Made by a program: the position numbers and the translations under genes
Source: Gordonia sp. KTR9
Lineage (GTDB): Bacteria; Actinomycetota; Actinomycetes; Mycobacteriales; Mycobacteriaceae
Direction of reading: 5' to 3'
Length of the DNA stretch: 64,000 bases
Assembly: GCF_000143885.2 (NCBI RefSeq)
Contig: NC_018581.1
Location: 3,658,001-3,722,000, forward strand
The notes under the pieces: model-generated
Told to the model about the DNA's origin: nothing
The model's input: only the letters and a program-made list of their open reading frames with translations
Database searches by the model: none
Part shown: in pieces, positions 59,644 to 63,329 of the stretch
How the letters are laid out: the number at the start of each line of letters is the position of its first letter
Numbering within the stretch: position 1 is the stretch's first letter

Positions 59644-59934
59644 TCAGGCGAGGGCGAGGAACAACTTCTCCAGTTCGGCCTCGGTCAGCGGCGGTTGCTC
59701 ACCGTCAACGGTCTCGATGCACTGTCGCATTCCCGAGGCCACGATCTTGAAGCCCGCGCGGTCGAGCGCCCGCGACACCGCGGCGAGTTGGGTGACGACG
59801 TCTTTGCAGTCGCGGCCCGCTTCGATCATCGCGATCACCCCCGCGAGTTGTCCTTGCGCCCGGCGTAGGCGATTGAGCACGGCACTCATCGCTTCTTCAC
59901 CAACGGCCATGTGCGGCCTCTCGTCACCGGCCAT
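59644..59934 (-). CDS. CsoR family (metal- or persulfide-sensing) repressor with His replaced by Gly
   Basis: 96 residues: AVLNRLRRAQGQLAGVIAMIEAGRDCKDVVTQLAAVSRALD matches CsoR-type all-helical repressors. The copper set Cys-x24-His-x3-Cys is Cys43, Gly68, Cys72 here, so both cysteines remain but the histidine is missing, as in persulfide-sensing CstR-type members. GAGGAGG precedes the ATG at 59934. It is divergent from the MMPL transporter gene, and two near-perfect CsoR-type operators lie between, so it probably represses that operon. Confidence 0.9.
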   Translation of the reverse strand: MAGDERPHMAVGEEAMSAVLNRLRRAQGQLAGVIAMIEAGRDCKDVVTQLAAVSRALDRAGFKIVASGMRQCIETVDGEQPPLTEAELEKLFLALA

Positions 59935-59987
59935 CGCGGCCTCCTCGGGATCGGGCACCACCGAACGTCCGGTTGGATGCGGAATTC

Positions 59988-60017
59988 TTGACGCCAACAT
60001 ACCCCCTTGGGTATGTT
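59988..60017 (+). promoter_or_regulatory. Promoter of the MMPL transporter operon
   Basis: TTGACG (59988-59993) and TATGTT (60012-60017) are 18 bases apart, with operator 1 filling most of the spacer and touching the -10. Confidence 0.55.
59999..60014. promoter_or_regulatory. CsoR-type operator 1
   Basis: ATACCCCCTTGGGTAT, a TACCC/GGGTA palindrome of the CsoR operator kind, inside the transporter promoter. Its centre is 33 bases from that of operator 2. Confidence 0.75.
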
Positions 60018-60031
60018 GGCCGCCAGATGCA

Positions 60032-60047
60032 ATACCCCTGGGGGTAT
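60032..60047. promoter_or_regulatory. CsoR-type operator 2
   Basis: ATACCCCTGGGGGTAT, an almost perfect TACCC/GGGTA palindrome, just before the ribosome site of the transporter gene (60064). Confidence 0.75.
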
Positions 60048-60063: not shown

Positions 60064-62226
60064 ATGACGCCCGAACCGGCCCTGACCGAAGACGAAACGA
60101 CACCCGGCACAACGCGTCCCGCACCCGGAGCGCTCAGCCGATGGGGAGCGGCGATGGTCGGCAGGGCGACATGGGTGTTCGGCGTGTGGGTGCTCCTGCT
60201 CGTCGCCCTCGGCGCAGCGGCCCCGTCGGTGTTCTCCTCCCTGGCGGGCGCGGGCTGGCAGGCAGACGGATCCGAGTCCGTCCAGGTCCGCGAGCTGGCC
60301 CAACAGCACTTCGGCGGGAACTCCTCGGCCGCGGTGCAGGTGGTCGTCCATTCCGACAACACACGCATCGACAGCGCCCCGGTACAGGCGGTGGTGTCAA
60401 AGATCGCCGATCTGGCCGCGACGGATGGCCGGTTCGCCGAGGTCATCCCACCACAGCCGGGCACGTCGATCAGCCCTGACGGTCACACGGGAATCGTCAT
60501 CATCGGCGCCGCCGCCGACACCGACGACATGGTGCGCGCCGTCGACGAGCACAAGGCGGAGCTGACCGGACTGTCCACCGACGGGATCGAGGTGTACCCG
60601 ACGGGCGCCTCCGCCTTGTGGAGCGATTTCAACAAGGCCAACCACGACGCCATGATCAAGGCCGAACTGTTCTCGTGGCCGGTCACGCTGACGATCATGG
60701 TCCTGGCATTCGGGTCGCTCGTCGCCGCCGGACTGCCGCTGCTGCTGACCATCGCCGGTCTCGTCGCCTCGGCGGGCGGCCTGGTCCTGCTGAACCAGGT
60801 CACACTGATCTCGGTCTGGGCGATCAACTTCGCGATGATGTTCGCGCTGGCGCTGGGCATCGATTACGCGCTGTTCGTCGTCTCGCGGTTCCGCGACTCG
60901 ATCCGGGCACACGGCGAGGACATCCGCGCCGCGGTGGCGGAGACCATGGACACCGCGGGCAAGGCGGTGTTGCTCTCCGGCATCACTGTCCTGGTCAGCC
61001 TGTCCGCGGTGCTGCTGGTCCCCGCGCCGGCAGTGCGGACGATGGCGGTGGGCATCATGCTGGCGGTCGTCTTCGTCCTCGCGGCAACGCTGACCCTGCT
61101 GCCCGCTGCACTCGGGAAACTGGGCGGCAAGGTCGATGCGGTGTCGCTGCCCTACGCACGTCGCCAACAGCACCGGTCACCGGTCTTCGCCCGCTGGGGA
61201 GGCTTCCTGCACCGCCATCCGTGGACCGTCACGGTGGGATCGCTCGCCGTCCTGATCGCACTGTCGATCCCGGTCTTCGGATTGAAGGTGGCGATGCCGT
61301 CGATCAGCGTCGTCCCCGAAGACGCCCCGGTCCGCCAGGGCTACGCGCTCGTCGCGTCCGAAATGGGCAGGGGCGCACCGGGGGTGCTGCAGATCGTTGC
61401 CCCGGCAGCCGAGGCCGCGCAGAGCGCCGAGATCGCCGCGGTCTCACCGGGTATCGAGATGGTCACCCCGCCGATGCCAGCGGCAGACGACTCGGGATAC
61501 GTCTTGCTGCAAGCGATTCCGTCGGTCGATCCATCGGACTCGCGGATGGGGCCGGTTGTCGAGGATCTCCGTGCTGCTCTACCCGACGGCTCGCTCGTCG
61601 GCGGGGCGCCCACCGAGAACCTCGACCTGCAGCAGGCACTGAACGACCACTTCCCGCTCGTCGTGACGGTCATTCTCGTCCTGGGCTTCCTCCTGCTGCT
61701 GGTCTCGCTGCAAGCACCGCTGATCGCCCTGATCGGCACCGTGGTGAGCCTGCTGTCGACCGCCGCGGCATTCGGTGTGGCGAAGCTCATCTTCCAGGAC
61801 GGGTACCTTTCCGACCTGTTGGGTTTCACACCCCAGGGCTTCCTCGACGGGTGGGGACCGGTGTTCTTCTTCGCCATGATCTTCGCGATCGCGATGGACT
61901 ACACCGTCTTCCTCCTCGCAACGGCCAAGGAACACCTCGAGCGTTCGGGGCATCCGGCGACCGCCCAGGTGGACGGGATGGCTCACTCAGGACGCATCAT
62001 TTTCGCCGCGGCCGCGGTCATGGTGGCGGTGTTCTTCACCTTCGCATTGGCCGAACCGCTTCCCCCCAAGGAGATGGGCATCATCCTGGGTGTCGCGGTT
62101 CTGCTCGACGCCGTCCTCATCCGTCTCACTCTCCTCCCGGCGTTGCTGCGGATCACCGGCCGGGCCGCGTGGTGGACGCCCGCCTGGTTGCGGCGGGTAC
62201 TCCCCTCGATCAGCTTCTCGCATTGA
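60064..62226 (+). CDS. MMPL family (RND) transporter
   Basis: 720 residues with 12 predicted membrane spans arranged as one span, a periplasmic domain, five spans, and a repeat of this. FAMMFALALGIDYALFVVSRFRDS and FAMIFAIAMDYTVFLLATAKEHL are the paired Asp-Tyr motifs of MMPL proteins, where the Asp carries protons. I chose the ATG at 60064, with AAGGAAG upstream. MMPL proteins export lipids, siderophores or drugs. With a CsoR-type regulator and a DUF302 gene, the trigger could be a metal or a reactive sulfur or electrophilic compound. Confidence 0.9.
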   Translation: MTPEPALTEDETTPGTTRPAPGALSRWGAAMVGRATWVFGVWVLLLVALGAAAPSVFSSLAGAGWQADGSESVQVRELAQQHFGGNSSAAVQVVVHSDNTRIDSAPVQAVVSKIADLAATDGRFAEVIPPQPGTSISPDGHTGIVIIGAAADTDDMVRAVDEHKAELTGLSTDGIEVYPTGASALWSDFNKANHDAMIKAELFSWPVTLTIMVLAFGSLVAAGLPLLLTIAGLVASAGGLVLLNQVTLISVWAINFAMMFALALGIDYALFVVSRFRDSIRAHGEDIRAAVAETMDTAGKAVLLSGITVLVSLSAVLLVPAPAVRTMAVGIMLAVVFVLAATLTLLPAALGKLGGKVDAVSLPYARRQQHRSPVFARWGGFLHRHPWTVTVGSLAVLIALSIPVFGLKVAMPSISVVPEDAPVRQGYALVASEMGRGAPGVLQIVAPAAEAAQSAEIAAVSPGIEMVTPPMPAADDSGYVLLQAIPSVDPSDSRMGPVVEDLRAALPDGSLVGGAPTENLDLQQALNDHFPLVVTVILVLGFLLLLVSLQAPLIALIGTVVSLLSTAAAFGVAKLIFQDGYLSDLLGFTPQGFLDGWGPVFFFAMIFAIAMDYTVFLLATAKEHLERSGHPATAQVDGMAHSGRIIFAAAAVMVAVFFTFALAEPLPPKEMGIILGVAVLLDAVLIRLTLLPALLRITGRAAWWTPAWLRRVLPSISFSH

Positions 62227-62282
62227 ACCCACCCGAACCGGGTAGACCATCGACCTGAACGGTCGGAGAGAAAGGAAACACG

Positions 62283-62687
62283 ATGTCACTTGCACTGGCC
62301 ACCACACTGACTGTCCCGTTCGACGAGGCGGTCGAACGGACTCGGACCGCACTCGCGGACCAGGGGTTCGGTGTCCTCACCGAGATCGACGTCCAGGCGA
62401 CGCTGAAGACAAAACTCGACGAGGACATGGAGCCGTACCTCATCCTCGGCGCCTGTAACCCACCCCTGGCACACCGTGCGCTGAGCGTTCGACGACAGAT
62501 CGGACTGTTGTTGCCCTGCAACGTCGTCGTCCGGGCCGACCCGGACAACCCGGGCAGCACTCTGATCGAAGCGATGGATCCCGGTCTCATGGTGCAAGTC
62601 TCGGGTGAGCCAGGACTCGAACCGGTCGCCCGTGACGCCGCAGAGAAGCTGCGCGCCGCGATCGACGCCCTGTCCACACAGTCCTGA
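62283..62687 (+). CDS. DUF302 domain protein
   Basis: 134 residues. VPFDEAVERTRTALADQGFGVLTEIDVQATLKTKLDEDMEPYLILGACNPPLAHRAL is the DUF302 core. The domain is small and soluble with no signal peptide. AAAGGAA precedes the ATG, and the gene lies 56 bases after the transporter. DUF302 genes are often next to CsoR-like regulators, but their function is not settled. Confidence 0.9.
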   Translation: MSLALATTLTVPFDEAVERTRTALADQGFGVLTEIDVQATLKTKLDEDMEPYLILGACNPPLAHRALSVRRQIGLLLPCNVVVRADPDNPGSTLIEAMDPGLMVQVSGEPGLEPVARDAAEKLRAAIDALSTQS

Positions 62688-62720
62688 CCACCGGGCCCCC
62701 GCCCCTACCGAGGAGTTCTC

Positions 62721-63329
62721 ATGACGGCTCACTTCGACTTCTACTTCGACCCCGTGTGTCCCTTCGCCTGGGCGGCCTCGCGGTGGCTCACCGACCAGGC
62801 AGGCGCGCACGGCGCGACCGTCGACTGGCATGTGATGAGTCTCGCGATCCTCAACGAAGACCAGGAACCGGACTCCGACGAGCAACGTCGGCAGCTCGAC
62901 ACATCCCGGCGACTCGGTCGTGTGTTCATGGCGGCCGTCGAGAAGGGCGGTGCGGAATCGGTCGAACCCCTGTACGCCGCGATCGGCGCCCGGTTACACC
63001 ATGCAGGCGATGAGATGACGCCCGCTGCGGTTGCCGAGACCCTGGCCGCGGACGGCCTCCCCGCGGAACTGTCCGACGCAATGGACGACGAGTCATTCGA
63101 CGACGCACTGCGGGAGTCGCACCGCCGAAGCCAGGATGCGCTGGGCGAGACCGGCGGCAGCCCGATCTTGGGTGTCGACGGGACGCACTTCTTCGGTCCC
63201 GTCCTCTCCGACATCCCGACCGATGACGAAGCGAACGCACTCTTCTCGTCGCTGGTGACGCTCGCGGGCGTGTCGGTGTTCTCACAGGTGAAGCGGCCTG
63301 CGGGAGGACCTCCGACGTTCTCGGACTGA
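62721..63329 (+). CDS. DsbA-fold protein like mycothiol-dependent nitroreductase (Rv2466c), CPFA active site
   Basis: 202 residues. FDFYFDPVCPFAWAASRWL, WHVMSLAILNEDQE and FFGPVLSDIP are shared in pattern with Rv2466c, whose active site is CPWC. Here the site is Cys13-Pro-Phe-Ala16: the attacking Cys is kept but the resolving Cys is Ala. Such a monothiol form could still react with mycothiol. GAGGAG precedes the ATG. It follows DUF302 by 33 bases and is likely the last gene of the CsoR-controlled operon. Confidence 0.87.
   Translation: MTAHFDFYFDPVCPFAWAASRWLTDQAGAHGATVDWHVMSLAILNEDQEPDSDEQRRQLDTSRRLGRVFMAAVEKGGAESVEPLYAAIGARLHHAGDEMTPAAVAETLAADGLPAELSDAMDDESFDDALRESHRRSQDALGETGGSPILGVDGTHFFGPVLSDIPTDDEANALFSSLVTLAGVSVFSQVKRPAGGPPTFSD

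Follow-up and report, generated by a model that had tools for sequence, protein, structure and literature searches.

A most likely CstR-type sulfane-sulfur repressor divergent from an MMPL-DUF302-CPFA operon in Gordonia sp. KTR9

The stretch analyzed here, in the following called the window, comprises 64,000 nucleotides of Gordonia sp. KTR9, a soil-type actinobacterium (contig NC_018581.1, positions 3,658,001 to 3,722,000 of the forward strand). At positions 59644-63329 of the window, the gene of a CsoR-like repressor on the minus strand is divergent from plus-strand genes for an MMPL-family transporter, a DUF302 protein and an Rv2466c-like protein with CPFA in place of CPWC. This gene set, read earlier from the sequence in a preliminary description, was confirmed by gene calls and profile matches at the same positions. 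The repressor is most likely a sulfane-sulfur sensor of known kind, namely of the CstR type (CstR/ScCsoR-like), and the locus as a whole is probably to be explained as a CstR-type dithiol switch that controls the MMPL-DUF302-CPFA unit, possibly together with a downstream SMR transporter gene, against sulfane-sulfur stress. On the output side, MMPL, DUF302 and the CPFA protein form a variant module that recurs and looks undescribed in the literature searched.

The repressor matched PF02583 (CsoR/RcnR family) with 81 bits as compared to a curated cut-off of 22.8, and its start codon, which gives 96 residues, confirms the numbering of Cys43 and Cys72. As described before, both cysteines are kept and the copper-binding histidine is a glycine: Gly68 aligns with the His of the other CsoR protein of the same genome (L001). 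In place of the Cys-His-Cys Cu(I) site of copper CsoR the protein has Cys43, Gly68 and Cys72, i.e., the two cysteines without His at the copper position that are expected of a CstR-type repressor. The closest solved chains by sequence, 7mq1-7mq3, are labelled CsoR in the PDB, are presumably CstR of Streptococcus pneumoniae, and in the alignments have Asn or Ala in place of the His. Among the best 120 of 7999 relatives, proteins more than 80% identical to the repressor were common in Streptomyces and Kitasatospora and also occurred in Williamsia and Actinomadura. The Cys/Gly/Cys pattern was present in 94 of the 95 repressor copies scored, with Arg replacing Gly in one, a conservation that is partly due to the selection of the loci by similarity; the copies were found by motif in loci L036-L126, two of them being overlapping fetches of the copy in the window, and came from all these loci except L086, L090, L111 and L118, which yielded none. 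The repressors of Mycobacterium gordonae (L106:6010-6279 and L109:5935-6279) have a third cysteine beside the Gly (ACGLRDC in L106); there DUF302 follows, and no MMPL gene lies within the fetched stretch.

Two operators ahead of the MMPL operon had been noted before, and both proved to be exact ATACCn6GGTAT palindromes, 33 bp apart in the intergenic region between the repressor and MMPL genes, which is in accordance with the palindromic, GC-centered operators expected upstream of genes controlled by CstR-type repressors. With one mismatch allowed, the window contained 2 such sites as compared to 0.23 expected from shuffles, and 3 of 100 shuffles reached 2; the count in the window by itself is moderately surprising, no more. 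In the 5.9-Mb genome the exact pattern occurred at three places, two of them at this locus, whereas the reversed control pattern gave 1. The sole sigma-70-like promoter match between 59500 and 63800 (1 found versus 0.2 expected) is directed toward the MMPL operon and is overlain by operator 1 (Table 1). The exact operator was also frequent at 80 related actinobacterial loci, which are the best 80 of at least 474 confirmed relatives and include near-duplicates (Williamsia contigs and two of M. gordonae): 152 operators in 887 kb, spread over 59 of the 80 loci, with 0 for the reversed control. Within 300 nt upstream, at up to one mismatch, operators preceded all 22 MMPL genes scored, in 20 cases at least twice, and 29 of 31 persulfide dioxygenase-like (PDO) genes, in 24 cases at least twice, the control giving 0 in both cases; this count omitted genes with less than 200 nt of upstream sequence or below the score thresholds. 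The corresponding numbers were 18/35 for rhodanese, 3/18 for DUF302 (control 1), 1/2 for SQR, 0/29 for TauE and 0/5 for Rv2466c-like genes; low rates would be expected for rhodanese, DUF302 and TauE if these are often inner operon genes.

The neighborhoods of the 80 related repressors, scored as matches of at least 50 bits within 4 kb, contained rhodanese at 34 loci, PDO at 32, TauE at 31 and SQR-like genes at 3, while a looser count with weak fragments gave 35 for rhodanese, 33 for PDO and 4 for SQR. MMPL of the window type was present at 22 loci, DUF302 at 16, DUF2892 at 7 and a P-type ATPase at 3; a CopZ-like gene was found within 4 kb at none of the 80. The linkage of the genes in relatives, whose absence had been named as fatal to the earlier proposal, is present. 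The PDO of the sulfur-type loci carries a metallo-beta-lactamase and a rhodanese domain. No sulfurtransferase or PDO gene stands beside the window's own repressor; such linkage occurs in numerous close relatives as well as in mixed clusters. One of these belongs to Actinacidiphila rubida (L048), where TauE-PDO is divergent from MMPL-repressor, and others are located on plasmids. On pRHL3 of Rhodococcus jostii RHA1 the genes run rhodanese, MMPL, repressor, DUF2892, DUF302, TauE and PDO-like, and on pREL1 of R. erythropolis PR4 an MMPL-repressor pair lies beside an FAD/NAD(P) oxidoreductase and a PDO-like protein. Nocardia farcinica pNF2 carries MMPL, repressor, DUF2892 and DUF302, with DUF2892 and an Rv2466c-like gene on the other side; in Mycobacterium branderi the genes are DUF302, an Rv2466c-family CPFA protein, repressor, MmpS, an RND transporter and DUF2892; in Streptomyces goshikiensis DUF302 adjoins PDO-rhodanese-TauE-rhodanese-repressor. 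Eight plasmid regions were inspected, these five among them, and the remaining three contained sulfur genes, in one case with DUF302, without an MMPL of the window type. The pNF2 cassette (L121:8313-9712) is found near alkylmercury lyase and a MerR-type gene beside an integrase. Williamsia sp. 1135 has three repressor-MMPL-DUF302 cassettes (L042, L043 and L045), each on a contig of its own (13.7 to 61.5 kb), which suggests mobility.

In a repressor tree of 86 rows (the window, the 80 loci, 4 plasmid copies and the genome's own CsoR) sulfur and MMPL neighborhoods interleave: 8 changes are needed, well supported branches force at least 3 of them, and not one of 200 bootstrap trees gets by with a single change, in an alignment of few columns and with many open forks. 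The sensor lineage has therefore swapped outputs repeatedly. Based on shared operators, mixed clusters and the interleaved tree, the exporter is assigned to the same type of regulon as the sulfane-sulfur genes.

A close parallel to this arrangement is the circuit of ScCsoR (SCO0620) in Streptomyces coelicolor, a CsoR-like repressor with Cys37 and Cys66 that recognizes ATACCn6GGTAT at two places within the PDO promoter and also controls a rhodanese, a sulfite transporter and itself (PMC7533328). ScCsoR leaves the DNA upon exposure to polysulfide via persulfidation of Cys37, and the response is lost in C37S and C66S (PMC7533328). The window locus resembles this ScCsoR-ScPDO-rhodanese-TauE circuit in its dithiol repressor, in a cysteine spacing of 29, in the operator sequence and in the two sites per promoter, and the partner gene kinds of the circuit also occur beside many close relatives of the window repressor. 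By contrast, the window output consists of MMPL, DUF302 and the CPFA protein, and no PDO of the ScPDO type was found above 33 bits in the genome. CstR of Staphylococcus aureus and Enterococcus faecalis is likewise a two-cysteine CsoR-family repressor in the handling of thiol persulfides; its regulon is one of sulfurtransferases, in E. faecalis with a CoA-persulfide reductase, and the available portions of the two sources mention no MMPL (PMC9405070; PMC9774590). The SUL module of Arthrobacter plasmids, known from gene prediction alone, also joins a CsoR-family regulator to a sulfur dioxygenase, rhodaneses, TauE and DUF302, whereas an MFS transporter takes the place of MMPL (PMC6305408). Taken together, homology, shared operators and gene neighborhoods make thiol or persulfide sensing well supported over copper sensing. 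The earlier preference for thiol chemistry over Cu(I) is retained as far as persulfides are concerned, and electrophile sensing is kept only as a rival explanation.

Following this, we propose that in the resting cell the repressor occupies both operators and represses the promoter of the MMPL-DUF302-CPFA(-SMR) unit and, by analogy to its homologues, probably its own. The signal would be a rise in sulfane sulfur (persulfides, polysulfides and probably mycothiol persulfide), upon which Cys43 would be persulfidated or bridged to Cys72, as suggested by S. coelicolor ScCsoR, releasing the repressor and allowing expression of the operon. Its products might then keep sulfane-sulfur stress in check with no persulfide dioxygenase involved: mycothiol or persulfide could be stripped from proteins by the monothiol CPFA protein, DUF302 could accept or pass on sulfane sulfur via its conserved cysteines, and MMPL could export a thiol-persulfide-derived or sulfur-conjugated compound, the pump substrate being the weakest step. 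A search of the genome with the PDO-like protein of RHA1 gave a best match of 33 bits, and no PDO of that type was found, so that the cassette may replace oxidation rather than assist it; the search covered the PDO route. The five weak matches obtained were rejected as a PDO located elsewhere in the genome, the best of them (30% identity) being a plain metallo-beta-lactamase-fold protein whose gene adjoins one of the alcohol-dehydrogenase family.

The MMPL protein has the PF03176 domains and both Asp-Tyr pairs that align with MmpL3, which we take to be the proton relay. By sequence, the solved structures closest to it are those of MmpL3, MmpL5 and MmpL4, named exporters of trehalose monomycolate and siderophores. 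Export of thiol persulfides or their conjugates by this putative pump is plausible. The stronger proposal, that MMPL is a dedicated reactive-sulfur efflux pump (for mycothiol persulfide, polysulfanes or conjugates), induced via the CstR-type repressor and supplied by DUF302 together with a monothiol de-mycothiolase, with clearance by export instead of oxidation, is put forward tentatively and is on present evidence somewhat improbable. At E<=1e-120 the protein was detected in 11 of 198 genomes of the phylum, its own included, and the search yielded 13 MMPL loci, including the window and three loci of a single genome. Of these 13, 9 have a scored partner or an exact operator at a distance of up to about 1.5 kb, some partner scores being low. 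A gene for an ArsR-type regulator whose C-terminal part contains two cysteines adjoins MMPL in L134:864-1211, L137:609-1277, L139:3632-4027 and L140:3570-3941, the profile match having been checked for L134, L139 and L140. These are distant relatives of the MMPL from other actinobacterial lineages, with DUF302-thioredoxin (L137) or a pyridine-nucleotide-disulfide-oxidoreductase-family gene (L140) close by. They thus have the same transporter beside a different possible thiol sensor of the ArsR type.

The DUF302 protein belongs to PF03625 and has the TT1751-like fold. Cys58 (CNP) and Cys79 (LPC) were invariant in 16 of 16 aligned sequences and are present in both solved homologues, and in the structural model (mean pLDDT 90) Cys58 is placed at a strand end just before a helix, which suggests a position that would suit a reactive cysteine. 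Fold comparison, in which 1j3m, 1q9u and 7tj1 (labelled CrcB) ranked well above the rest, yielded no function. Furthermore, the Rv2466c-like protein matched PF22234 with 165 bits as compared to a cut-off of 27, and its CPFA site keeps the first Cys of the CP[WF]C dithiol, Ala replacing the resolving Cys. Because the resolving Cys is missing, the earlier label of a mycothiol nitroreductase-like protein was dropped in favor of a monothiol relative. The DsbA-Mrx1 proteins Rv2466c and NCgl2478 share with it the PF22234 match and the nucleophilic N-terminal Cys and differ in having CPWC or CPFC (PMC8280269). Since the reduction of mycothiolated mixed disulfides by Rv2466c-type enzymes follows a monothiol mechanism (PMC8280269), the CPFA site would be compatible with activity. 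In a non-random sample of 32 Rv2466c-like loci (the best-matching ones, the genome's own paralogues and the window), none of the 7 with CPWC had a cassette partner or operator nearby, as compared to 20 of the 25 with CPFA, CPFT or CPYT, window included, the others being L005, L008, L020, L024 and L029.

Several observations weigh against a CstR-type switch over a sulfane-sulfur module. The likeness of the window repressor to ScCsoR rests on cysteine spacing, operator and partner genes rather than on sequence alignment. At the 80 related loci, 21 lack an exact operator, 17 lack any scored sulfur, MMPL or DUF302 partner, and sulfur genes and MMPL occur together within 4 kb at 50 bits in only two (L048 and L053). 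Four of the 13 MMPL loci (L134, L135, L138 and L139) lack both a scored partner and an exact operator over about 1.5 kb, and in L134 and L139 the ArsR-type regulator replaces the repressor. The third Rv2466c-family protein of the KTR9 genome (L005:1270-2193, C2:4634510) has CPFA and no cassette partner within 1.5 kb; its gene adjoins that of a monomeric isocitrate dehydrogenase. Moreover, MMPL proteins usually carry lipids, siderophores or drugs. It is quite possible, although short of probable, that MMPL is an envelope-lipid or cofactor transporter whose induction repairs the envelope under sulfide or sulfane stress and that exports no sulfur compound. The kinship to MmpL3, MmpL5 and MmpL4 and the MmpS with RND family transporter in the same slot of M. 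branderi agree with such a role, whereas the same MMPL type in loci of Streptomyces and Actinomadura, which do not make mycolic acids, and its adjacency to PDO and rhodanese fit a sulfur substrate better.

The repressor might also sense quinones, hypochlorite, disulfides or thiosulfinates in a module against thiol-electrophile or organosulfur stress, with the pump exporting drugs or mycothiol conjugates and the sulfane-sulfur genes being co-regulated since both stresses hit thiols. This would be in accordance with the SMR drug-type pump gene 3' of the operon, with an OsmC, thioredoxin or carboxymuconolactone-decarboxylase (AhpD-type) gene near some relatives, with the drugs and conjugates commonly exported by the MMPL class, and with the role of the Rv2466c-family NCgl2478 in oxidative stress (PMC8280269). 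We consider it unlikely, given that sulfane-sulfur enzymes (PDO, rhodanese, TauE, SQR-like) are the partners that recur and that the CstR-like homologue YrkD of Bacillus licheniformis mediates promoter induction by elemental sulfur and polysulfide, not by H2O2 or oxidized glutathione (PMC9918477). A CsoR sensing copper, or another metal, over a metal efflux or redox operon is very improbable: despite the PF02583 membership, the similar appearance of CsoR and RicR operators (PMC7533328) and two cysteines that could still bind Cu(I), nearly all repressor copies have Gly at the His position, CopZ-like genes and P-type ATPases are absent or rare in the neighborhoods, and the separate His-bearing CsoR of the same genome adjoins the gene of a 68-residue heavy-metal-associated (CopZ-like) protein. 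Copper sensing therefore already has a candidate owner and was discarded as the principal function.

Bacteria are known to meet sulfane sulfur by oxidation, reduction and sulfur transfer, the last step being the export of sulfite. If the proposed CstR-type switch is correct, a regulon with an RND-type exporter as its main output, found on plasmids and chromosomes of Actinomycetota, would add efflux to these routes and hints that, in some bacteria, reactive sulfur compounds may be pumped out besides being oxidized; it would also offer a functional context for DUF302 and the monothiol branch of the Rv2466c family. The preliminary description had suggested an unrecognized defense system, which seems to hold only for the exporter and CPFA part: the sensor is of a kind known from CstR-like repressors and PDO circuits, and DUF302 by such a circuit has been noted on Arthrobacter plasmids (PMC6305408). 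The same paper contains an MMPL, yet in a module other than the CsoR-family SUL module (PMC6305408). Searches reaching few subscription papers found no literature joining the MMPL family with persulfide dioxygenase or Gordonia with sulfane sulfur, and the words export, efflux and MMPL are absent, by word search, from the main text of a 2022 review of reactive sulfur in bacteria (PMC9774590). A link to DUF302 in a paper on auranofin was discarded, the family there being DUF3025, and a desulfurization study of R. qingshengii names only a lower level of rhodaneses and of a DsbA-like protein in cultures with dibenzothiophene.

Table 1. Predicted features of the divergent repressor-MMPL locus (positions in the window).
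Feature	Position	Strand	Description
CstR/CsoR-family repressor	59644..59934	-	96 aa, ATG start at 59934; Cys43 and Cys72 kept, Gly68 at copper-His position
Sigma-70-like promoter match	59988..60017	+	TTGACG, 18 nt, TATGTT; toward MMPL operon; consensus match alone
Operator 1	59999..60014	.	ATACCCCCTTGGGTAT; spans promoter spacer and start of -10
Operator 2	60032..60047	.	ATACCCCTGGGGGTAT; 33 bp downstream of operator 1, 16 bp before MMPL start codon
MMPL-family (RND) transporter	60064..62226	+	720 aa, PF03176
DUF302 protein	62283..62687	+	134 aa, PF03625
Rv2466c-like DsbA-fold protein	62721..63329	+	monothiol CPFA site, PF22234
SugE-like SMR transporter	63405..63743	+	possible last gene of unit

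The short gaps of 56 bases between MMPL and DUF302, 33 bases between DUF302 and the Rv2466c-like gene and 75 bases between the latter and the SMR gene suggest that the four genes form one transcript. The SMR gene may be part of the operon in some Gordonia. A SugE-like SMR gene also adjoins the cassette in Gordonia alkanivorans (L037); it was not scored in G. lacunae (L036).

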